64,000 nucleotides of DNA from Sorex araneus. Its lineage: Eukaryota > Chordata > Mammalia > Eulipotyphla > Soricidae. The stretch covers positions 184,121,470-184,185,469 of the forward strand of contig NC_073303.1 of the NCBI RefSeq assembly GCF_027595985.1. The letters run 5' to 3'. Below, one piece after another: positions 2,543-64,000 of this stretch (its first letter is position 1; every line of letters begins with the position of its first letter). Position numbers and translations under genes: made by a program. The notes beneath the pieces were generated by a model. It made no database searches and was not told the DNA's origin. It saw only the letters and a list, made by a program, of their open reading frames with translations.

Positions 2543-2715
2543 TTTTGCTTTGTTTTGTTTGGCGGCCATACTCAGGGGTGCTGAGAGTTTTTCCCTGGCT
2601 CTGGGCTCAGGGATGTCTCCTGTCACTGCTCACTGGACCACATGGCATGACAAGGATCAAACCAGGGCTGGCTGGCCAACAAGCTCCTAACCTGGTGTAC
2701 TTTTGCTCTGGCCCC
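2543..2715 (-). mobile_element. Diverged SINE, poly(A)-tailed class
   Basis: The order T-rich tract, 'ggcggccat', 'ctcaggg', 'ggaccacatggcatgac' and 'gctctggccc' follows the poly(A)-class consensus in reverse, with many substitutions. An older copy. Confidence 0.75.
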
Positions 2716-2792
2716 AGGGCATGGATATTTTTCTCTGAATGAGTATGAATGACTTTTTGAGGAGGGGCTATTGATAAAAGAAATAGAATTTG

Positions 2793-2950
2793 CATTTGTT
2801 TGTTTGGGGGCCACACAGTATTATGCTAAGTGATTATTCCTCTCTCTGTGTCTAGGGATTACTCTGACTGACCTCATGGGGTCCCAAGGGTTGAGCCTTG
2901 TTTAGATGCATGTGAGACAAGTGTCCTGGACTGTTCTATCTCTCCAATCT
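2793..2950 (-). mobile_element. Old diverged SINE, poly(A)-tailed class
   Basis: A T-rich start, 'gggggccacac', 'gattactctg' and an end like 'ctatctctccaatc' mark a decayed reverse-strand copy directly next to another SINE. Confidence 0.65.
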
Positions 2951-4585
2951 CAAGAGTGGTTTTCTTTTAGTTTTTAAACTGTTGAAACATAATTTGAACT
3001 CGGCAAAAATCCATTGAGAGAGGAGAGACTACAAAGATGAAATCATAATACCACAGTGAGAGGTTGGCCCATGTCTACTAATCTTATGTGGACAAGTTAA
3101 AAAAGAAAAATGCAACAAGTCTATTCACATCAGTAGAATATTAATGAAGAAGGAAAAGGGAATGACAATTGAGGAAACCCTAAAGTTCTATTTGACCCAA
3201 AAAGTTCCTGGAACTGTTGTCTTTAAAGACTGAGAAATGTTCCCAGAATTCTCTAGAGGGGTTTTTGAGAGATGATCAAAGGACAATATTGTCACCTAAA
3301 TTATTGAATTTTAAAAAGACAGTATATGCGTGTAAACAAACATACATGCATTATTTATTTTATGAGGATCTTATTATATAGGGTACATGGAAATTCTGTT
3401 AGGGTTTTTAGTATGTTGACAAGACAAGGCAATACGATTAAAACAGGTAGTGGAAAAAATGTCATCAATATATAGAGCTGTGATATTATTTTGCAGAAAT
3501 TTTTTTTCATAATTTTTGAAATAAGTTCATATACAACATTAAAATGTTTGTCCATATATATAAAATAAAATATCCTGCAGACTTACATTTTTCACATATT
3601 TTAGATCTCAAGTTGGCAATTGCCCTGGGATTCCTGGAAAATCAAAGTTTAATACTCAACATCATTGATATGACCTTGTGTTCCTGATAAATGGAAGCAT
3701 TAGGGCTCTACCCAACAGGGTTGCATTTCCCACCTGCATTTTGACCAGTTTCCTTAATGACCTTGCCAGCTGATATAAATTGCTTTTGGAGGGAGCTCAG
3801 AGAAGTGTTAGAAAGCTTAAAGATTTTGCTTCAGGTTACAGTAGATGGCTTTTAATAGCAAAGAAAAAAAAGTGGCAATTTCTGACACATAAAAATACCT
3901 CTTTTGATTTTGACAGTAGATAACAAGCACTTCCCTTTTTTAATAGCAAGGAGAGGTGTTATTTATAAACTTACTAAATAAAATATGCTAACACAAATGA
4001 TATCTGTTCTTTTGTGTGTTCCTTGTGACCTCTGTCTTGTCATTCTTACTTAGACTACTTCAACGTGTTGTCTGTTAATTTAAATATAGACTCAGTTCAG
4101 TTTACTTATGTCAAAAAAATTCTCAGCTTTACATATACCTATGTAAAAATATCACTTCTTTCTGTGAACATCATCAAAGGCAAAAAATTAAGTTCATTTT
4201 TTCTTAGATTTATAAATATACAAAATTCTATGATATTGCAAAGATATCCCATATTTTGTTGGGTAGTCTATTACCTTAAGTTTGAAAATATATAGTCAAT
4301 TAAGTGAAAAAAATAAAAACATCCTCAGAAACAAAATGAAGTTCATTTGGAATTAACATCTTATGTTAATAACTGTATTTTATATTCACCAGAGCTAACA
4401 TAATTAGCACAATCTGAAGCTGCTTCAGGTTTGTTTAATGTAGGACTGCATGAATTAATAAATATACACACTAAAGACATAAAATAATGCATAATTTTGT
4501 AAGTGTAGACTTCTCAGACATGTACACACACAAACCACTCATGCGAGGACTATTAATGTACTTGACAATGTGTGTCTTAGAGTTT
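2951..4585. other. Unclassified AT-rich sequence
   Basis: No repeat family, coding signal or structured element that I can support. Reading frames here are short, AT-rich and without recognisable domains. Confidence 0.55.
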
Positions 4586-8509: not shown

Positions 8510-8881
8510 ATATCACTATATCACTGCATCACTGTCATCCTGTTTTTCATGGATTTTCTCAAGCAGGCACCAGTAATGTCTCCATTCGTCCTAGCCCTGA
8601 GATTTTAGCAGCCTCTCTTTACTTGTCCTTCCTAACGGTGCCGGATTGGAGGCTCTTTCAGGGTCAACGGAATGAGACCCATCTTTGTTACTGTTTTTGG
8701 CATACCAAATGTGCCACGGGGAGCTTGCCAGGCTTTGCTGTGCAGGCAGGATACTCTCGGTAGCTTGTCGAGTTTTCTGAGAGGAAGAACTAGATAGTAA
8801 GAGGTCACTCGGCCAAGAATGTGGCCACATTCTTCCTGGAGCATTGTTTTATAGTCTCTGGATCTTGGCTGTTGATTGGAT
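8510..8881 (-). mobile_element. RTE LINE internal-deletion derivative (5'UTR joined to 3' end)
   Basis: Read on the minus strand, this starts with a segment also present at about 40590-40625 (ccaagatccagagact, then tctcagaaaactcg). It continues through 'gatgggtctcattcc', 'ctgaaagagcctcc' and 'agagaggctgctaaaatctc', also seen in the RTE 5' region at 14640-14760. It then jumps at 'ggacgaatgg' to the RTE 3' end and finishes in atagtgata-type tail repeats. No tRNA-like head is present, so it is not an ordinary SINE but a non-autonomous RTE derivative. Confidence 0.8.
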
Positions 8882-8950: not shown

Positions 8951-9351
8951 AAATATATTATTTAAATATGTAGTTTAGAAGCAGTACATATGCCATTTTG
9001 AAAAATATCCTGAAACAGTTTTAATTGTACATAAAATTATTTTCCCTTGAAGTTTATTATTCTCTTACTGGCACAATTATTCCAAAATGTTAATCAAAAG
9101 CAGATTACGATTAACCAGGAATCTACACAAAGTTGTGTGTGTAGAATATAAGAAAATAGTTGAAGTATGAAACAAAAATTAAACTAAATTCTGGGTAAGA
9201 ACAATCGGTAATTCATTAAACTTTGCTGTCATTTAGTATCTATGTTTATGAAATACTCAGCTGGGTTCTGCTATATTTGTAATGTATTTGATAAAATAAT
9301 ACTCTGAAATTGTTTCATAAACCTAAAAATATTATTCAAATACCTTATCAT

Positions 9352-9602
9352 TGGACTGGTGCGATAGCACAGTGGGTAGGCATTTGCCTTGCATGCATCT
9401 GACCAGGTTTTGATTCCTCCATCCCTCTCAGAGAGCCTGGCAAGCTACAGAGAGCATCCCACCCACACAGCAGAGCCTGGCAAGCTACCCGTGGCGTATT
9501 CGATATGCCAAAAACAGTAACAACAACAAGTCTCACAATGGAGATGTTACTGGTGCCCCCTTGTGCAAATTGATAAGCAAAGGGAAAACAGTGCTACAGT
9601 GC
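9352..9602 (+). mobile_element. SINE with RTE-type tail
   Basis: A complete plus-strand copy with head, RTE-like body (gtggcgtattcgatatgcc) and tail acagtgctacagtgc. The 9-bp target duplication taccttatc is at 9342-9350 (approximate) and 9603-9611. Confidence 0.94.
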
Positions 9603-11718
9603 TACCTTATCGTTAATTATATTTAGGCATGCAAAAAGTTTTGTGATATTATTTTTAAATCAGCTTTTGTTCTTAAAAGTAAGTCTAAGAGGGAAAATAC
9701 TCAGATCATTAATTAAAATCTGAATTAATATAACAATCAATTGTGTTGAATGAAATCTTTTATTAGTCCTTTTTTAAAAAATTGCATTTTAGACTTTTGT
9801 TTCCTCTTGTTATAGTCTTACACAGTCTCATATATTTTTCCCTTAGACCTAACATCTAATTGTCATTTTTATTCTCTACTTTATAATACCTGTCATTGGA
9901 TAATGGAAGAATCAATCAAATGCTTTCTTTCCCCCCTTCATGTCCCTGCAGCAACAGAACTTTATTATTTTTACTCCAGTGACACTGAGAAGCTTGAATC
10001 AATATTGACAAAACATCAGGCCTTTTTGAAAAACCTAGCTATGATAGTACTCAAAGCTTAACCATTTCAGATCTTTTATGGACAGGGAAACTCAAAATTT
10101 ATTTTCCTCACAAACACATGAAATTTAATCCTTTGGAAGATCGTTCATTTGTATTTGAAATGCTGTCATGATAATTGACTTCTAAGGCTTGAATTTTTCT
10201 CCATATATGAGAGAAAACCAAAACCTAAGTAAGGAAAATTTATATAATTATGTTTTGAAGATCTCTATTTCTTGTAAAGGGAAAACAGAGTGTAGGAGCA
10301 ATATGATATTGTTCCTTCTAGTGATAGAAAAATTGAGCTCCTAATTGAAATACTAGAAAAAAAATCCTTGCAGATAAATGTATACTTAAACAATTCAATA
10401 AGTAGTTTAAATAAATAATAAATAAATACTTTGTTTTGGTTTATCATAGATTTGATCATTAGAAAAGTATTTCATATAGTCATATCAAACTCTTCCTATT
10501 GATATAGTTCTAATATTATTCTTCCTGTTATAAACGTTTAAGTAATATGACAGATAATTAAATGCCCTCTCTTATGTAGACCTTGCATTGTTTATTGTAG
10601 AATATCATGTATAGGTTTCTATATATTTTTCTATAATTTCAATAGAATTCCTCAATTTTCTGCTTTGGGGTAGGTGGATATGATGTAGGCAGGTAGACAG
10701 GTAAGGGCCCTCATGGGAATGGAATTCTTAGGGAGTAGTAAAGCTAATTAGTCCTAAGGCCATTAGAATCCACTTGTGAGCACAGGAACTAAGGCCTGAT
10801 AAGAGTATTAGAGTATTCTATCTATATTAATTTCTGTAGAAATAAACTAGACATCCTCCTCTCAAAATGAATTCACTGAAATAAATTTGCATCTATACCA
10901 TTATTAGCTTGAATTTTGCTTAGGAGAAACTTTGCATAAAAAATAAGCAAAACAATTCAATCACATGGTATGATAAGTTTCTACAATTCATATTATTTTG
11001 AACTCAGTTTATAATATTTACGCAACAGAAAGTGTGTGGAAGTAAAATGGATCAGAGGTTATTTTTTTTCAAAAAGCTCAATAGTACTAGAAAATAATAA
11101 ATGTATAAAACCTCCATACTCCATCTAGAACAATGAAACTTTCTGAATGGAAAAACAGATTTATGTTTTTAAAATTAATAAAAGGCAAAAACTAAGTTTT
11201 CACAGTTTTCATATACCTGAACTATGGGTAGAAAATGTTTATAAAAATATGGAATATTTAATCAAATCTACTGTGATTATCAGTAGCATATATCTTTTTG
11301 GAAACAGATAATATTTTGAAATCATGATTGATTTATGAAAACCATAGAAATAAAATAACATGTTGGACTTTGTTGTCAAGCAGTTCATTTAGGAAAACAA
11401 TAATTTCATGAGGAATTACAATTTATGAAATTGAGAATGTTTAAAAAATATACATGAAATCAATAATTATGTTGAATATAAAATGGATATCTTTAAGGAT
11501 TTGCTTTTGCATTTAATTCCTGCTCTTCTAGTGCACTTTCTTTATGTTCATCTTCTGACCTGATTAGCATCATTGTAATGACATTTATTTTAAAATGAAA
11601 CAAAAAAAACCCATAAACTTTGTTTTTGAAGCACAAGATGGGGCGATAATTTATTATTAATATTAATATAATTTCATAATTAAACTCCTAAACAAAGATT
11701 GTTTTAACAGTAAACTCT
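9603..11718. other. Unclassified AT-rich sequence
   Basis: No supported gene or repeat. A slightly GC-richer patch at about 10670-10860 has no recognisable ends or frame. Confidence 0.5.
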
Positions 11719-13872: not shown

Positions 13873-14634
13873 ACTTTTCACTTGTCACTTGTAGTCCCAT
13901 TGATCTTCAATTTGCTTGAGCGGGTGCCAGTAACATCTCCATTTGTCCTGTCTCAAGCTAGTGTAGCCAATGATACCTGCTCGCTCCAGGAACAGAAAGA
14001 GCCTCAAATCCTTCACTCAGAGATTTGATGAAAAAATCTGACCATCTAGTTGGTGGGCAGCCATGTGGTCTTCTGACATTCCGTGGAATTCAGTCTGTAA
14101 CAGCTCTAATCCAACGGTCATCTTGGAATCGCATTACATGACCGGCCCATCTGATTTTCGATGCCTTGGCAAACGAGACAGCATCCCTGATTTTTGACTG
14201 TTGACGGAGGTCAGAACTCCGGATTTCTTCTCTCACTTGAGTGAGACATGATATTCCCATCATAGCTCTTTCTATTCCTCTTTGGGATACCCTAATAGCA
14301 TTCTCATCCTGCTTGTGTAGGGCCCAGGTCTCTGAGGCATATGTTAGTGCAGGAAGAATGGTGGAATCGAAAAGATGTGCTGGGAGTCAGAGGTTCTTCG
14401 TTCTCTTAACCACATCTTTGACGTTCTTGAAGGCATTTCACGCTGCTCTCTTCCTCCTGCGCAGTTCTGGCACCAAGTCATTCCTCATGTTGATTTCTCA
14501 ACCCAAGTACACATAGCTGCTGCATTTGGAGATGTTCATTCCATTGAGAGCAAATGGAGCTTCAGGGACCAGTTTGTTTTTTATGAATATCTTCTTGTTG
14601 AGATTCAGCTGCAATCCGCCTTTTCCACACTCGT
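13873..14634 (-). mobile_element. RTE-clade LINE, 3' part (C-terminal ORF and 3' end)
   Basis: On the minus strand conceptual translation runs GLQLNLNKKIF, EAPFALNGMNIS, SSYVYLG, INMRNDLVPELRRRKRAA, then FDSTILPALTYASETWAL, KIRWAGHVMRFQDDRW and RPHGCPPTRWSDFF. This is the characteristic C-terminal region downstream of the reverse transcriptase in RTE-clade LINEs. Several stops (for example after YVYLG) make it dead. The 3' end carries the same terminal segment as the RTE-tailed SINEs (ggagatgttactgg, cccgctcaagcaaattg), followed by short tandem tail repeats. The flanking 15-bp near-repeats acatttgcatcttgt (13858-13872) and acatttacatctagt (15109-15123) look like a decayed target-site duplication for the whole 13873-15108 insertion. 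Confidence 0.9.
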
Positions 14635-15108
14635 ATTCGATATGCCAACAATAGTAGCAACAATTGGCCTCATTTACCTGTCACCGAAAGAGCCCCCAAT
14701 ATGGCAGCGTTAAGAAATATGAGCAAAGAGAGGCTGAAAAAATCTTGGGGACGAACTAGACTGCCAAAACAAAAAAAGACTAAGATGATTGTCTTTACTT
14801 TCAACGCGTCAAAAGCATCCATCAAGGACCTGATGGTGCAAGCGCAGAAGATCAAGTACGACATCATTGGTCTGACCGAAACGAGGAGACATCAATCACA
14901 TCACACCATTTTCAACACTGGAGAAGAATTTTTCCTCGGAACATGAGACAACAGAGGCATTGGTGGCATTGGCATCCTTGTCAACACGAACTTGCCATGA
15001 GCATCGATTCATTTGAAGGCCTAACAACCTGGATTGGACGATTACGCTTGAATTAATGTGGCTCACTGCCTGCAGTTTCTATCTTCATCCTCTACGCACC
15101 AACTTCCA
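14635..15108 (+). mobile_element. RTE-clade LINE, inverted 5' part (5'UTR and endonuclease start)
   Basis: This segment lies in the opposite orientation to the adjacent 3' part. It begins in the 5' UTR (attcgatatgcc ... gaaagagcccccaatatgg). Near 14701 it enters a frame reading MAALRNMSKERLKKS and, further on, KIKYDIIGLTETRRH, then EEFFLGT, GGIGILVNTNL and finally ILYAPTSN. This is the N-terminal apurinic/apyrimidinic-type endonuclease domain, including the Glu-containing LTETR motif. Stops follow EEFFLGT and occur later. The reversed orientation, both parts lying inside one target duplication, is the classic product of twin priming. Confidence 0.88.
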
Positions 15109-15167
15109 ACATTTACATCTAGTTAAAAATATTTATATATTTGACTCTTTCAGTACCTTTATATGTT

Positions 15168-15334
15168 TTTTTTTTTTGGTCACACCCAGTGATGCTCAGG
15201 GGTTACTCCTGGTTCTGCACTCAGAAATTACTTCTGGCGGTGCTTGGGGGACCATATGGGATGACAGGGATGGAACCCAGGTCGGTCGCATGCAAGGCAA
15301 ACACCCTACTAGCTGAACTATTGCTCCAGCCTCA
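15168..15334 (-). mobile_element. SINE, poly(A)-tailed class
   Basis: A well-preserved minus-strand copy: T tract, ggtcacacccagtgatgctc, accatatgggatgac and ctattgctccagc. A short duplication, tatatgtt, at 15160-15167 and 15335-15342 is the likely target site. Confidence 0.92.
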
Positions 15335-25690: not shown

Positions 25691-26971
25691 TTCTACTTTA
25701 GGAAATTTTAACTTAAATTCAGTAGTTAAGTTTGTATTTTAGCAAAATATTTCAAAGTTACAATGACAATTAAAACTATTTTTGAAACTTAAAGATTTAG
25801 AAAATAATCTAGACTTTATACCCATATTTTCTGAAGAATGAAATACTAAAAATCATCTCAGGATATTAGAAAAGTTTATATTTCTAAAATGAGTAATTCA
25901 TTGTTTGAACCCTGCATTTGTAGTGAAATTAACTGTTATAATAGTAGAGTAAAGGTCAGTATAAACTGATTTGCAACAAAGCCTTAGACTAACGAATAAC
26001 ATGACTAGCAAATAAACATTTTTTTCTGAAGCTCGAATAGGACCAACTGTTTTGCCCTACTTTGGAATCATTGAAAAGGTCAAATGAAATGTTACTCAAT
26101 GGAATAAATCTATGTTCTGTATTTATATATAAACCATTTCACATTTTATATTTTATCACAGCATATATTTTCTACTACTTTAGGTTAAATATATAAAATC
26201 GATTCATTTTTCTATGTATCTATAGGCACATATATATATATATATGCAATTGCATGAGTCATTTCATGTGCATTTTTATCAGTTCATCAACAGTCATAAT
26301 TTGGTTTTGAACTTTGATATTCTGATAAAATTCAGGTTTTATAACATTATAATTTTCAATCATTGCACATGATTATATTTCTCAAAATTTAAATAAGTAG
26401 GGTTATATGTAATTTCACTTTATCAGAAGCTTCTATGCCTTTGAATTACTCTTTATCCTTAATCATCTCTTTTCCAACACCCAAGTGCACGGGCTTTGAA
26501 GGTTTGCATGTAAGCATTGCCTGTATCCCTGCCGTCCTGAGGGGGGTTGTGACAGCAGGACACCGAGGACAGCCCAGATGTTTCCTCCATTTCTGTTCTG
26601 TCTCAAGAGACAGTTCAGATACAGACTTTATATCCTTTAAATCTGTTCTAGCCAAATAAACTCACCTGCACACAACATCTGGTTGGTTATCTTGGTCTCT
26701 GAGGTCCCTCTAGTGCCATCTTTTCCATTCCTCCTTTTGCAATCCATGGGTTTGGAACAATTTCTAGTACTCGTTTTGCTTTACATTTTGAACTTATGTG
26801 ACATCTCAGCATTTTCTATATGGTTTAATAATATGTTTCATTATGTTTACTGCACACATAGACTTCCAGGTTTTCCAGTTTTTTTTTTTTTCTTCTCAGA
26901 CTATCAGAACTCTCTCCTTGTCACATACAAAGTATTAACAGAGCCAATTTGGTTTAACTGAATAGAATGCT
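25691..26971. other. Unclassified sequence, GC-richer at 26480-26720
   Basis: Overlapping frames of 74 codons (plus, from about 26435) and 69 codons (minus) lie in a slightly GC-richer patch. Neither shows a recognisable domain, and both are compatible with chance. No repeat hallmarks seen. Confidence 0.45.
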
Positions 26972-29484: not shown

Positions 29485-29592
29485 AATTATGATTCAATGC
29501 CTAATGTAGCATATGAATCAATGCTTGATAATGTAGTGTGGCCCCAACGGGATTCTTTCTGCTATAGTAATATGTGCTGAGGAAATTTATGG

Positions 29593-29837
29593 GCTGGAGT
29601 GATAGTACAGCAGTAAGGCGTTTGCCTTGCATGCGGCCAACCTGGGTTTGATTCCTCCACTGCTCTCGGAGACCCTAGCAAGCTACCAAGAGTATCTCAC
29701 TCACATGGCAGAGCCTGGCAAGCTACCTGTGGCATATTCGATATGCCAAAAACAGTAACAACAAGTCTCACAATGGGGATGCTACTGGTGCCTGCTTGAG
29801 CAAACCGATGAGCAACAGGATGATAGTGACAGTGACA
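29593..29837 (+). mobile_element. SINE with RTE-type tail
   Basis: A complete plus-strand copy ending in gatagtgacagtgaca. The perfect 14-bp target duplication gaggaaatttatgg is at 29579-29592 and 29838-29851. Its agtgac tail repeats differ from the acagtgct type seen in other copies. Confidence 0.96.
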
Positions 29838-38858: not shown

Positions 38859-39116
38859 AGTAGCACGGTAGCACTATAGCACTGTCATCCCATTGTTCAT
38901 TTATTTGCTCAAGTGGGCCCCAGTAACATCTCCATTGTGAGACTTATTGTTACTGTTTTTGGCATATTGAATATGCCACGGGTAGTTTGCCAGGCTCTGC
39001 TGTGTGGGTGGGATACTCTCGGTAGCTTGCCTGGATCTCTGAAAGGGATGGAGGAATCAAACTCGGGTCAGCCTCGTGCAAAGCAAGCACCCTACCCACT
39101 GTGCTGTTGCTCCAGT
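38859..39116 (-). mobile_element. SINE with RTE-type tail
   Basis: A complete reverse-strand copy with three tail units (agtagcacggtagcac). The 11-bp target duplication ccattgttaat is at 38848-38858 and 39117-39127. Confidence 0.96.
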
Positions 39117-39177
39117 CCATTGTTAATGGTACTCTAATTTAGTAATATCAGGAAGCTTCTTTCAAGATTTAATGACA

Positions 39178-40231: not shown

Positions 40232-40907
40232 GAAGAGAGCTATGCAGAGTTCTGGCCCCGAGTCTGGCTATCTGTCTTCACCAGGGTCACTTGGAGAGGC
40301 ATGGTTTGCATTTCCCTTCCTACCACAAGCAGAGCCCAGGCAGCCGAAAACCTCTGGAACCCATCCACAGCCATGCTCAAGGCCACTCTCCACATGCTTG
40401 GATGAGCCTCACATGTGAAGGAACCGGCAGAGGAACCCAGGTGTGCAGGACCCTCGGCTGAGATCTCCAAGCCTGCTAAGATTGGGACTGGGCTTCCTCC
40501 ACCCAGACTCCCCCATTTTCCAGTAGCTAGGCAGCCACATCCACAAACCGCCCCCAGCTCAGTGTAATCCCATCAATGGCCAAGATCCAGAGACTGTAAA
40601 ACAAAGCTCTCGGAAGCAATCTCTTATTGTATAGTTCTCCCTCTCGGAAAACCCGGTAAGCTACCAAGAGCATCCTTCCTGTACAGCAGCGTCTGGCAAG
40701 CTCCCCGTGGCATATTGGATATTCCAAAAACAGTAACAATGATGGGACTCATTCTTCTTACCCTTAAAGAGCCTCCAATGTGGCGCTGCTGGGAAGAACG
40801 AGTAGAGAGGCTGCTAAAATTTCAGGGCTGGGATGAATGGAGACGCTACTGGCACCCTGCTTGAGCAAATCAAACAATTGGATGACAGTGATACAGTGAT
40901 ATAGTGA
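40232..40907 (+). mobile_element. RTE internal-deletion derivative with long 5' UTR
   Basis: The plus strand carries about 400 bp of GC-richer sequence (40232-40625), then 'ctctcggaaaacccggtaagctacc', 'ggcatattggatattcc', 'ctcattcttcttacccttaaagagcctcc' and 'agagaggctgctaaaatttcag', joining at 'gggatgaatggagacg' to the RTE 3' segment and an acagtgatatagtgata tail. It shares its core and the same kind of junction with 8510-8881, and its middle with the RTE 5' region at 14640-14760. The 'aaacaaagctc' motif is repeated at 40219 and 40598. There is no ORF, so it would depend on an active RTE. The exact left end is uncertain. Confidence 0.78.
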
Positions 40908-51337: not shown

Positions 51338-53290
51338 CTATATTCCACAGATGAGTGCAATCTTTCTATGTCTGTCTTTCTCTTTCTGACTCATTTCACG
51401 TAGCATGATACTTTCCAAGCTGATCCACTTATATGCAAACTTCATGACCTCATTTTTTCTAACAGCTGCATAGTATTCCATTGTATAGATGTACCAAAGT
51501 TTCTTCAGCCAGTCATCTGTTCTAGGGCACTCAGGTTTTTTCCAGATTCTGGCTATTGTAAACAGTGTTGCGATGAACATTTAAGTGCAGATGTCATTTC
51601 AACTATACATTTTTGCTCCTCTGGTATATATTCCCAGCAGTGGTATTGCTGGGTCAAATGGGAGCTCAACCTCTAGTTTTTTGAGTATCGTCCATATTGT
51701 TTTCCAAAAGGGCTGAACTAGTCGGCATTCCCACCAGCAGTGTAAAAGAGTCTCTTTCTCCCCACATCCTCTCCAACAGTGGTTGCTTTTGTTCTTTTGG
51801 ATGTGTGCTAGTCTCTGTGGTGTGAGGTGGTTTCTCATGGTTGTTTTGATCTGCATCTCCCTGATGATTAGTGATGTAGAACACTTTTTCATGTGCCTTT
51901 TGGCCACTCGTATCTCTTCCTTGGGAAACTTTCTGTTCATTTCTTCGCCCCATTTTCTGATGGGGTTGGATGTTTTATCCTTGTAGAGTTCAACCAGTGC
52001 TTTGTATTCCCTTGATATCAACCCCTTATCTGATGGGTATTGTGTAAATATCCTTTCCCATTCTGTAGATAGTCTTTGTATTTTGGTCACTGTATCTTTT
52101 GCGGTGCAGAAGCTTTTTAGTTTAATGTAGTCCATTTGTTGATCTCTGTTTTTACTAGATTGCTTAGTTCTGTGTCATCTTTGAAGATACCTATATCTTC
52201 AATATCGTGGAGGGTTTTGCCGACCTTGTCTTCAATGTACCTTATGGTTTGTGGTCTGATGTTGAGGTCTTTAATCCATTTTGATCTGACTTTTGTGCAT
52301 GGTGTCAGGTCAAGGTCTATGCCCATTCTTTTGCATGTGGTTTTCCAGTTGTGCCAGCACCATTTGTTAAAGAGGCTTTCCTTGCTCCACTTCACATCTC
52401 TTGCTCCCTTATCAAAGATTAGATAATCGTATACTTGGGGTTGTGTGTAGGGATATTCCACCCTGTTCCATTGGTCTGCAGGTCTGCCTTTGTTCCAGTA
52501 CCATGCTGTTTTAATTGTTACCGCTTTGTAGTAAAGTTTGAGGTTGGGGAGGGTGATGCCTCCCATAATCCTTTTCCCAAGAATTGTTTTAGCTATCTGT
52601 GGGCGTTTGTTGTTCCATATGAATTTTAGGATTGCTTGATCCGTTTCTTTGAAGAATGTCATGGGTATCCTTATAGGGATCGCGTTAAATCTGTATAATG
52701 CTTTGGGGAGTATTGCCATTTTGAAAACATTGATTCTCCCTATCCATGAGCAAAGTATATGTTTCCATTTCCTCATGTCTTCTTTTATTTCATGGACTAG
52801 TGTTTTATAGTTTTCTTTATAGAGGTCTTTTACTTCCTTGGTTAGGCTGATTCCGAGGTATATGACTTTCTGGGGCACGATTGTGAATGGGATTGCTTTT
52901 TTCATGTCCCTTTTCTCTGCCTCATTGTTTGTATATAGGAAGGCCATGGATTTTTGGGTATTGATTTTGTAGCCTGCAACTTTACTGTATAAGTCTATTG
53001 TTTCTAAGAGTTTCTTAGTAAAGGCTTTAGGCTTCTCTAGATATAGTATCATGTCATCTGCAAATAATGAGAGTTTGATTTCTTCCTTCCCTATCTGGAT
53101 GCCCTTAATCTCTTTTTCTTGTCTAACAGCTATTGCAAGTACTTCCAGTACTATATTGAAGAGAAGTGGTGAGAGTGGGCATCCTTGTCTTGTGCCTGAT
53201 CTCAGAGGAAAGGCCCTTAGTTTTTATCCATTGTGGATAATGCTTGCCGTAGGCTTGTGGTAGATGACTTCGAATATCTTGAGGAACTTG

Positions 53291-53433
53291 ATGAGTGGGT
53301 TAGGAAGGAAATCAAAGAAGAAATAAAAAAAATACTTAGAAATAAATGAAAATGAGGACACGAGTTATCAAAACCTATGGGACGCAGCTAAAGCCGTGTT
53401 AAGGGGAAAATTTATAGCTCTCCAAGCATTCCT
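53291..53433. repeat. 143-bp perfect inverted self-duplication inside L1 ORF2
   Basis: Bases 53291-53433 are the exact reverse complement of 54393-54535, with constant coordinate sum 107826 and no mismatch or gap seen. The copy interrupts ORF2 between the RT entry region and the FADD motif. It is bracketed by a 9-bp inverted repeat, gaggaactt (53281-53289) and aagttcctc (53436-53444). Confidence 0.95.
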
Positions 53434-54392
53434 TGAAGTTCCTCCAAAACCCATTTTGGTGAGAGTTTTCATCATGAACAGATGTTGGATCTTGTCAAAT
53501 GCTTTCTCTGAATCTATTGATATGATCATATGGTTTTATCTTTACCTTTGTTGATATGGTGGATTATGTTGATTGATTTCCAGATGTTAAACCATCCCTG
53601 CATCCCTGGGATGAATCCCACTTGGTCATGGTGTATGATCTTCTTGATGAGTTGTTGGATCATATTTGCTAGTATTTTGTTGAGGATCTTCGCATTGGTG
53701 TTCATCAGGGATATTGGTCTATAGTTTTCTTTGTTAGTGGTGTCTTTGTTTGCTTTTGGTATTAGGGAGATGTGTGCTTCATAGAAACTGTTTGGGAGTG
53801 TTCCTGTTTTTTCAATTTCCTGGAAAAGCTTGAGGAAAACTGGCAACAGGTCTTCTTTGAATGTTTGAAAGAATTCGACAGTGAATCCATCTGGGCCTGG
53901 GCTTTTATTTTTTGGGAGATTTTTGATTACAGTTTCAATTTCCTTAACATTAATGGGTCTATTCAAGTATTCCAAGTCTTCTTTGTTCAGACTTGGGAGA
54001 TTGTAGGAGTCAAGGAATTCATCCATTTCTTTTAGGTTCTCTTGTTTTGTGGCGTATAGACCTTTAAAGTAGTCTCTGATGATTTTTTGAATCTCACTGG
54101 TTTCTGTTATGATTTCCCCGTTTTCATTTCTGATTCGATTTATTAGGGTTCTCTCTCTTTCTTTCTTTGTGTGTCTTGCTAGCGGTTTATCAATCTTATT
54201 TATTTTCTCGAAGAACCAGCTCTTTGTTTCATTGATCTTTCGGAATTTTTTTTTGTTTCGATGTCATTAATTTCTGCTCTAATTATTATGATTTCTTTCC
54301 TTCGTTCTGTTTTGGGTTCCTTTTTCTGGTCCTTTTCTCAGGTCTTGAGCCGTGAAGTCAAGTTCTCTATGTGGGCCCTTTCTTCCTTCCTG

Positions 54393-54535
54393 AGGAATGC
54401 TTGGAGAGCTATAAATTTTCCCCTTAACACGGCTTTAGCTGCGTCCCATAGGTTTTGATAACTCGTGTCCTCATTTTCATTTATTTCTAAGTATTTTTTT
54501 TATTTCTTCTTTGATTTCCTTCCTAACCCACTCAT
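54393..54535. repeat. Source arm of the 143-bp inverted duplication
   Basis: This copy lies in the correct L1 context (ORF2 region between endonuclease and RT), so it is the parent of the inverted copy at 53291-53433. Confidence 0.93.
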
Positions 54536-55356
54536 TGTTCAACATTGAGTTGTTTAGTTTCCAGGTGTTTGATTTGGTTCTCCGTATCAGTGTGTGGTTA
54601 GCTTCTATCTTCAGCGCTTTGTGGTCTGAAAATACGGTTGATACTATTTCTATTTTTCTGATTCTATTGAGGTATGTTCTGGGGCCCAGTACATGGTCTA
54701 TTTTGGAAAATGTTCCGTGTGCACTGGAAAAGAATGTGTATTCTTTCTTTTTTGGGTGTAAAGCCCTGTATAGGTCTATTAGGCCTCTCTCTTCCATTTC
54801 TTCTTTCAGCGTCAGTAATTCCTTGCTGAGTTTTGTTCTTGTTGATCTATCCAGAGGTGATAAGGGGGTATTGAAGTCTCCAACTACTATTGTGCTGTTA
54901 GTGATATCCTCTTGAGGTCTGTTAGGAGTTGTTTTTAGTATTTAGCCGGTCGTTCATTGGGTGTGTATACGTTTTAGAGTGTGATTTCCTCCTGTGGTAC
55001 ATATCCCTTGATGAATAGAAAGTGGCCTTCACTGTCCCTTTTAATCTTTTTCAACCTGAAATCTATATTGTCTCTATATTGTCGGATACTAGGATGGCCA
55101 CTACAGCTTTTTTAAGAGAGTTGTTTGCTTGCAGGATTATTTTCCATCCTCTGACTTTGAGTCTGTGTTTACTCTGTTTGTTCAGGTGTGTTTCTTGCAA
55201 ACAGCAGAATGTTGGGTTTAATTTCCAGATCCATTTTGCCACTCTATGTCTCTTGATAGGTGCATTTAGGCCATTGACATTTAGAGAGATTATTGTGATG
55301 GGGTTTTGTGTAATCTTTCTGTGGGGTTCGTTGTTCTTATGGGGTTCCTCCTTAGC

Positions 55357-56306
55357 TTACAGTAGCCCCTTTAGACCCTCTTTTAAGTTTGGTTTTGAGT
55401 CTATGAAGTTCCTGAGCTGTTGTTTATCCGAGAAATAGTGTATGGTTCCTTTGAGTGTGAGTGAGAGTTTAGCCGGATAAAGAATTCTTGGTGAAGCATT
55501 CATTTCGTTGAGTTTTTTCACTATGTCCCACCATTGTCTTCGGGCTCGGAGAGTTTCCTCTGACAGGTCTACTGTAAATCAGAGGGGTGCTCCTTTGTAT
55601 GTGATTTCTTTCTTTGACCTTGCTGCTTGTAGAATTGTGTCTCTATCCACAGCATCTGCCATTCTGACTATGATATGCCTCACAGTCTTTTTATTCGGGT
55701 CTCTTTTTGCTGGCACTCTTCTGACTCCTTGTATCTGGATGCCTGCCTTCTCCAGCTCTGGGAATTTCTTAGCAATGATGTCTTTGACTGTGTTTTTTCA
55801 TTGGGGTTACTTCCCTGTGGTTCTGGTACTCCAATGGTTCTTATGTTCTTACATTTGAAGTCATCCCCAAGGGCTCTGATTCGCTCTATAGCCATTTTGA
55901 GGTCTTTGGCCATTATTTGTTGTTGTCTGTAAGCTTTCTGCAGCTCATCCTCTAGGTCGCTGATTCTGTCTTCGGCTGTAGTCATTCTACTATTGAGGGC
56001 ATCTACTGAGATTTTTAATTCATCTACCGATTCCTTAATTTGTGTGACTTCCATTCGTAGGTTTGAAAGTTCTGCTCTCATTTCTTCCTGCATTTTTTTG
56101 GTAGAACGTTCCAGTGATTCATTCATCTCCTCCCTTAATTTATTGGACGTCTGTTCCATAGTTGCTTGGAGTAGGTCGATTCTCCTCCAAATTTCCTCTC
56201 TGAATTGTTTATCTGAGAGTTCGTAGATGTGGGTAGCCCCTTTCGAGGTTTCTGGTATCTTTTCTTCTCCCTCTCTTCGTGGAGGGAATTTTCGCTGCCT
56301 CTTCAT
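55357..56306 (-). pseudogene. L1 ORF1 (RNA-binding chaperone), frameshifted
   Basis: The first 208 codons (56306-55680) are open. They begin MKRQRKFPPRREGEEKIPE and continue as a heptad-rich coiled coil (from about residue 30 to 150: MEQTSNKLREEMNESLE, AELSNLRMEVTQIKESV, DRISDLEDELQKAYRQQ). A frameshift then leads into the RNA-binding and C-terminal regions (DRDTILQAARSKKEITYKG, LRARRQWW, YPAKLSLTLKG, YFSDKQQLRNFIDSKPNL) and a stop at 55357-55359. About 317 codons in total, usual for L1 ORF1p, which trimerises and coats L1 RNA. Confidence 0.92.
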
Positions 56307-56309
56307 ATT

Positions 56310-56835
56310 GTTATGGAAGTATAGAATTGGAACTTTGTAGTTGTTTATTACTACTCCCTCTTGCTGAGAGAAAGAGAAGCTCTGGTTATGCTATTGCTGA
56401 TGGCAGCTTTGTTCCTATTCTAGAGTTCTTCCTTATACTCAGGCGTTTCTTCCTGATTGATGATGGGGTGTTTAATGAAGACTTAAGGCTAAGTTTTCTT
56501 TACAAAGGTTTTGCTAAGCTTCTCTTATTCACTGATAATTTTTCTAGAGTTGAAGTAAGCTAATGGGCTAGTTCACATAAGTGATTGAGATGGGTTAAAA
56601 CAATTTTCAAAGCATGAACACTATACCTAATGTGCTAAGGTAGGAAAGAATAACTGTGGCCGCATTAGCGGCTGCTGCAGGGGCAGGAACCCACGCCCCC
56701 TTTTAGGCCATGCCCCTGAGATACAGGCCACGCCCGGGAGGCGTGGCTGGGAGTGGCCTGATTACCTGCAAAACGGCCGGTTAGATGGAGCCGGACGGGA
56801 AAGGCTGGGCCGGTGGGACACGGAAAGGGGCAGTT
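56310..56835 (-). promoter_or_regulatory. Probable L1 5' UTR with GC-rich end
   Basis: Upstream of ORF1 the sequence is first AT-rich, then at 56660-56830 sharply GC- and CpG-rich (for example gccacgcccgggaggcgtgg on the plus strand). L1 5' UTRs hold an internal RNA polymerase II promoter, so this is where one would sit. No specific factor sites are claimed. Confidence 0.6.
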
Positions 56836-61536: not shown

Positions 61537-61785
61537 GACTGGAGTGATAGCACGGTGGGTAGGGCGTTTGCCTTGCATGCGATCGACCCAGGTTCTATTC
61601 CACCAACCCTCTCAGAGAGCCTGGGAAGCTACCAAGAGTATCCTGCCCACACAGCAGCGCCTGGGAAGCTACCTGTAACATATTTGATATGCCAAAACCA
61701 GTAACAACAAGTCTCACAACTGAGACATTACTGGTGCTTGCATGAGTAAATTGATGAACAACGGGACAACAATGCAGTGCAGTGC
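61537..61785 (+). mobile_element. SINE with RTE-type tail
   Basis: A complete plus-strand copy (gactggagtgatagcacgg to aatgcagtgcagtgc) with a perfect 14-bp duplication, tatttctgactgtg, at 61523-61536 and 61786-61799. Confidence 0.96.
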
Positions 61786-63434: not shown

Positions 63435-63677
63435 GGCTGGAGTGATAACACAGCAGTAGGGCATCGCCTTTCACACGGCCGACCTGTGTTCGATTCCTCC
63501 ACCCCTCTCAGAGAGCCTGGCGAGCTACCGAGAGTTTCTCGCCTGCACGGCAGAGCCTGGCAAGCTACCCGTGGCGTATTGGACAGGCCCAAAACAGTAA
63601 CAACAAGTTTGACAATGAGAGACATTACTGGTGCCCGCTTGAACAAATCGATGAGCAACAGGATGACAGTGACAGTG
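63435..63677 (+). mobile_element. SINE with RTE-type tail
   Basis: A complete plus-strand copy ending in gatgacagtgacagtg. The 11-bp duplication actattttctg is at 63424-63434 and 63678-63688. Confidence 0.96.
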
Positions 63678-63810: not shown

Positions 63811-64000
63811 TATCACTCTATCACTGTCATCCCATTGTTCATCGATTTGCTTGAGGGGTGCCAGTAACATCTTCATTCATCCCTGTCGCCTACTAGTGTA
63901 GCCCAATGGCATATTGGGAGCTCTTTCAGGGTCAGAGAATGAGGACCTCCTTTGTGACTGTTTTTGGCATACCGAGTATGCCACAGCTAACTTGCCAGGC
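63811..64000 (-). mobile_element. RTE internal-deletion derivative, second junction type (cut by window end)
   Basis: The minus strand holds 'ggcatactcggtatgcc', 'ctgaaagagctcccaatatgcc', 'attgggctacactagtagg', 'gatgaatgaagatg' and the RTE 3' tail. Compared with 8510-8881 it keeps about 30 bp more of the RTE 3' region (the gggctacactag segment, as at 13945-13970) and lacks the 'agagaggctgctaaaatc' segment. Its deletion endpoints therefore differ. Confidence 0.8.

Follow-up and report, generated by a model that had tools for sequence, protein, structure and literature searches.

How a short interspersed element comes to carry two separate pieces of one LINE is the question raised by the copy at positions 9352-9602 of the window, by which we mean the whole 64,000-nucleotide stretch of Sorex araneus DNA that was analysed. 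The copy consists of a tRNA-Ala-like head, a body that corresponds to a 5' UTR segment from an RTE LINE, and a tail that corresponds to the 3' end of the RTE; in the SINE copies these parts measure approximately 65, 110 and 64 bp. The comparisons described below make it very probable that the SINE was put together from a Sor-type head, an RTE 5' UTR segment and about 64 bp of RTE 3' end; it would be transcribed by RNA polymerase III and mobilised by the RTE. The coordinates of all features are given in Table 1.

Table 1. Coordinates of the SINE copies, the RTE LINE and its internally deleted derivatives in the window.
Feature	Position	Strand	Remarks
Left target-site duplication TACCTTATC	9341-9349	.	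flanks SINE copy 9352-9602
Right target-site duplication TACCTTATC	9603-9611	.	flanks SINE copy 9352-9602
SINE head, tRNA-Ala-like, common to the A-tailed Sor-type SINE	9354-9417	+	consensus versus consensus 58/63
SINE body, RTE 5' UTR segment directly upstream of the ORF	9416-9526	+	84% to RTE probe 389-499
SINE tail, RTE 3' end plus terminal ACAGTGCT-type repeats	9537-9602	+	9537-9598 79% to RTE probe 3393-3455
Full SINE copy	29592-29834	+	14-nt TSD
Full SINE copy	38872-39117	-	15-nt TSD, 1 mismatch
Full SINE copy	61537-61779	+	14-nt TSD
Full SINE copy	63435-63677	+	11-nt TSD
RTE LINE, 3' part (probe 2712-3460)	13878-14633	-	90% identity
Same RTE copy, inverted 5' part (probe 468-948): 32 bp of body region and ORF start	14632-15109	+	
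Derivative A: own 5' UTR, body, ORF start, then jump to the LINE 3' end; about 655 bp	40244-40897	+	
Second derivative A copy; no match to the 5' part of A	8523-8881	-	81%
Derivative B: another internally deleted RTE family; 3' part begins near RTE probe 3362	63815-64000	-	at window end

The five SINE copies named in the initial annotation proved to be real, as judged by nhmmer and by their target-site duplications (TSDs); the one given there as 38859-39116 lies on the minus strand. With an nhmmer model built from these five, the window yielded 14 copies (E ≤ 3e-31), of which 11 cover essentially the whole model and three are partial; all 14 retain at least part of the RTE tail. A 32-base SINE junction pattern had 137,809 matches in the genome and none in the reversed control, which excludes chance; junction patterns of this kind tolerate at most three mismatches, so that older copies are missed. 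The SINE is very abundant in the shrew genome. TSDs above the 95% null were observed in 19 of 30 SINE rows (17 of 28 without two duplicate rows), a few of which sit in simple repeats, for example at window 23550, and no TSD above the null was observed in the other 11. The 30 rows end in ACAGTG/ACAGTGCT repeats of the LINE type, not in poly(A).

The head of the SINE consensus is identical at 58 of 63 positions to that of the A-tailed SINE consensus, which was made from 14 window copies, and the likeness ends at base 65 of 245. ARAGORN with default settings called a tRNA-Ala in the A-tailed consensus head and no tRNA in the SINE consensus head, where the relaxed setting alone drew a tRNA-Ala(TGC). 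A- and B-box-like sequences are present in the SINE head, and by its sequence the head is of the RNA polymerase III promoter type. The A-tailed SINE of the window is presumably Sor. Sor has an A-rich tail and is not known to contain the RTE body or the RTE tail. Its tRNA-like head is matched by the SINE at 9352-9602, from which the A-rich 3' tail and the body of Sor are absent. A Sor SINE from the shrew genome was used in the work reported in PMC11240701.

The tail had been said to match the 3' end of the RTE, and it does so in the copy at 9352-9602 (Table 1) as well as in the consensus, which agrees at 55 of 64 positions with the RTE and at 59 of 64 with derivative A. The LINE end in the window lies at 13878-13947 on the minus strand. 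Read in frame, the 3' end of the LINE is ...DKWRCYWRPLEQIEDQRDYK-stop in a consensus of 10 copies, so the SINE tail comprises the last ~18 codons, the stop codon and a very short 3' UTR bearing the repeats. The terminal repeat of the young RTE, which is ATACAAGTG-like, differs slightly from that of the SINE. Around the rearranged RTE copy (13878-15109), no TSD of at least 8 exact bases was found. In Pfam searches, one LINE ORF piece contained the reverse transcriptase domain RVT_1 (E 1.2e-17); in a second piece no endonuclease domain was found, the only match being a sub-threshold one to an FAD-binding domain. A scan of viral contigs returned no relatives of the RTE ORF piece.

The body had likewise been assigned to the RTE 5' UTR, and this assignment stands for 9416-9526 (Table 1), with the supporting segments in need of correction. 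In the stretch 14636-14700, taken as RTE 5' UTR, the match is genuine at 14632-14663, and it covers only 32 bp of the body because this RTE copy is broken by an inversion. The stretch 40630-40760, taken as LINE 5' UTR, does contain the body (40638-40739), though within the non-autonomous derivative A and with no full LINE around it.

Derivative A is one of several internally deleted RTE elements in this genome. The copy at 40244-40897 is 87% identical to a consensus of 20 copies, itself included. With a 501-base query, 40 genome places were scored, its own included, over nearly the whole query, and the others had 82-86% identity. The 32-base junction of derivative A occurs at 26,488 genome places (reversed control 0), and TSDs above the 95% null were found in 9 of 14 full-length rows; on this evidence derivative A is a dispersed non-autonomous family. 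It agrees with the young RTE consensus at 146 of 187 positions around the body and the ORF start and only weakly further upstream (45/61), which points to a different RTE subfamily as its source. For derivative B, 40 genome places were also scored, its own included; its junction occurs at 2,791 places (control 0), and its 5' ends vary among the four relatives that were read. One copy, in locus L020, is joined at yet another point and retains only the second half of the body. The tails begin near RTE probe position 3393 in the SINE, 3388 in derivative A, 3381 in the L020 copy and 3362 in derivative B.

The direction in which the body was transferred can be read from 30 RTE loci, namely those fetched out of the 40 genome matches that were scored for the RTE ORF start, one of them being the window's own copy. 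In 28 of the 30 the ORF is immediately preceded by body sequence, of which the window's copy has the 32 bp mentioned above, and in none does the SINE head lie ahead of that body. The two exceptions, L035 and L053, both begin at probe 510 beside an inversion. Among the 12 longer loci, the body is in its normal position in 11 and in an inverted segment in L067; the LINE's own tail follows ~2.8 kb downstream of the body in 10, while L061 has no tail match and L070 has one only inside a derivative fragment. According to the initial annotation, the converse case would be that full-length RTE copies lack the body and that a SINE inserted beside the RTE produced the match. The body would then have been a SINE sequence first, seen in RTE copies through SINE insertion beside or into the LINE 5' UTR; the rearranged copy, with its short match at 14632-14663, could indeed have given this look. 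We regard this as extremely unlikely. The body occupies the same place in nearly all loci, the RTE consensus and derivative A remain homologous past the body and on into the ORF start, and none of the 11 longer loci with a normally placed body has a SINE tail match separating it from the ORF; the head or tail that a SINE insertion would leave is not seen. These 30 loci, with the body in 28 and the SINE head in none, indicate that the body is LINE sequence acquired by the SINE.

Which RTE donated the pieces is a further matter. The median non-CpG distance to consensus was 7.0% for the SINE (28 copies), 7.0% for derivative A (20) and 2.9% for the RTE 5' region (12), values that may be biased low for the RTE and derivative copies and for SINE loci L002-L008, which are best matches to window copies. 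Given 2.9% versus 7.0%, the RTE sampled is probably younger than the donor of the SINE. No LINE subfamily was found that could have donated both body and tail, since the states of the two point in opposite directions, and a search for an intact LINE whose ORF start resembles that of derivative A gave 0 matches with a partly guessed, and hence weak, pattern. Instead of arising straight from RTE RNA, the SINE could have descended from a non-autonomous element of the derivative A kind, in which further interior sequence was deleted before a tRNA head was added. The tails of the two begin only a few bases apart, 6 states of the SINE tail agree with derivative A and not with the RTE and 2 with the RTE and not with derivative A, and both families stand about 7% from their own consensus. 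The body speaks for the young RTE, which it matches at 103 of 113 positions versus 96 of 113 for derivative A, with 14 states found in the young RTE and not in A, and 7 found in A and not in the young RTE; in the AACAAC stretch, moreover, derivative B appears by eye to be nearer to the SINE than A is. On balance, descent through such an element is possible and somewhat unlikely. The A-tailed Sor-type SINE is mobilised by L1. As the head is common to both SINEs and the window contains open frames that look L1-like by eye, L1 might also have mobilised the tripartite SINE, with its RTE pieces as passive passengers. The LINE-type repeats at the ends of the 30 rows, in place of poly(A), and the retention of RTE tail sequence in all 14 window copies make this very improbable.

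The fusion of a tRNA head with an internal-deletion derivative of the RTE, which had been proposed for this locus from the outset, is the best reading, with the body resident in the RTE 5' UTR and free-standing derivatives in existence. It is directly supported by the three homologies, the presence of the body in the LINE, the SINE TSDs, the LINE-type 3' repeats without poly(A) and the parallel derivatives. We infer the transcription and recognition of the element and the order of the switches as follows. An RTE transcript would have been shortened by internal deletion or by a template jump, as seems to have happened at least twice more in the shrew genome. In the course of reverse transcription, the enzyme would have switched from the RTE 5' UTR to the RNA of a Sor-type SINE just past the B box, and this switch would have supplied the promoter. 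The joint between head and body, ...GATTCC/TCC..., overlaps by eye the CCTCC of the LINE, and such an overlap is compatible with template switching at short homology. RNA polymerase III would then transcribe the SINE from the head, and the RTE protein would recognise the common 3' end and copy the SINE by target-primed reverse transcription.

There are 18 RTE tail matches in the window, and 17 of them have the 5'-UTR core at most 200 bp away on the same strand; the 18th (13880-13947) belongs to the LINE itself, whose 5' UTR sits in the inverted half. The LINE parts common to the derivative classes seen are about probe 443-499 and 3393-3454, a result that rests on few independent derivative events and, outside the window, on derivatives recognised by having both parts. 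This pattern suggests that the RTE machinery needs the 5'-UTR core. The core (probe 443-499, including the GGCRTATTCGATATGCC hairpin) might be a second RNA signal required by that machinery, a proposal that we put forward tentatively and consider rather doubtful. It would explain why the core is kept beside the 3' end in the SINE, in derivatives A and B and in the L020 variant, and also the 5' piece in AviRTE SINEs and, reportedly, in Bov-B SINEs; under this proposal both template ends would be recognised by the RTE protein, and the SINE would amount to a minimal template with two signals. Both-sided changes in the GGCRTATTCGATATGCC hairpin were not seen by eye among about four independent family consensuses. 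The parallel deletion derivatives in one genome make the retention of a 5' piece by RTE SINEs testable with a compact set of elements.

Bov-B SINEs with a bipartite 5' and 3' structure were reportedly described by Gogolevsky et al. in 2008. The shrew SINE differs from these in its partner LINE, which is unlikely to be Bov-B: our literature searches found a single shrew RTE in print, RTE1_Sar, which we infer to be very probably the partner, and this element is said to stand nearer to insect and nematode RTEs (PMC6542046). According to the same source, RTE1_Sar is abundant in Sorex araneus, was undetected in reads of hedgehog, solenodon and mole, and is shared by the common shrew with strongylid nematodes through horizontal transfer; the word 'sine' has 0 occurrences in the main text of that paper. 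The shrew SINE has the make-up of a bipartite-tail SINE, with a pol III-type head (recognised from sequence), a 5' UTR middle, a LINE 3' end with terminal repeats, and TSDs. The initial annotation implied that a shared 3' tail alone is known for such partnerships, which is not the case, as a bipartite tail has been published for AviRTE SINEs. According to the account of these elements in Suh et al. 2016 (PMC4844689), where they are compared with BovB-mobilised SINEs, all AviRTE-mobilised SINEs have a bipartite tail of 5' and 3' UTR fragments behind differing heads. ManaSINE1, GymnSINE, MeloSINE and others thus have the same kind of tail as the shrew SINE, with a different RTE, host and heads; the shrew head is that of the resident A-tailed SINE. 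The hitch-hiker design of a SINE with both LINE ends is therefore not new, having been found in birds and, reportedly, in cattle and other mammals.

Similar combinations are tabulated by Ohshima (PMC3747384, Table 1), with Bov-tA, Ped-1, Ped-2 and AfroSINE as SINE/LINE pairs having Bov-B or RTE tails. The head of Ped-2 was taken from another SINE, ID; the head of the shrew SINE, too, is that of another SINE, the A-tailed one. In the promoter column of the same table, MAR4, RTESINE1, RTE1-N1_LA and Bov-A2 carry the entry '5'-end of RTE' or '5'-end of BovB', and by this description derivatives A and B appear to be of the same type. A tRNA-RTE repeat class is tabulated at low copy number in a hedgehog genome (PMC12026660). 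No paper describing the shrew SINE or the RTE derivatives was found in the literature searched; the subscription literature, Repbase or Dfam may already have them. With the shrew elements, the RTE lineages that have spawned SINEs with both LINE ends gain one more, which is probably the nematode-related RTE1_Sar. Two aspects are mildly new, namely this probable partner and the occurrence of several RTE deletion derivatives in one genome.

Several minor observations were made on these elements and their surroundings. The L020 derivative (L020:167-720), in which half of the body is gone, has by eye an apparent 11-nt TSD, AAGTATAGTAT. An A-tailed SINE head is present at window 15258-15331, ~150-220 bp past the end of the rearranged RTE copy. 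At window 51599-56390 on the minus strand, long open frames resemble by eye pieces of L1 ORF2 and ORF1, so that an L1 seems to accompany the RTE system. An inverted RTE segment abuts the 5' part in 18 of 30 RTE loci (loci L029-L058 and window 13878-15109), a share that may be inflated because the loci were selected for the ORF start. For some of these inversions the two breakpoints are only a few bases apart along the RTE (1430/1432 in L047, 1839/1836 in L043), the outcome expected of twin priming. RTE 5' starts that recur near probe 281 were considered as a transcription start and rejected, the probe copy being without the GC-rich stretch there. The RTE 5' UTR contains a tandem repeat, made up of one unit of ~244 bp and, behind it, ~45 bp of another, which are identical in consensus (L030, L031, L036, L042 and others), and ATAAATA was seen by eye ~30 bp ahead of the unit start. 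This tandem repeat resembles the promoter monomers of mouse L1. In derivative A, a partial upstream unit with a TATAAAA stretch is present in L019, L028 and L059.
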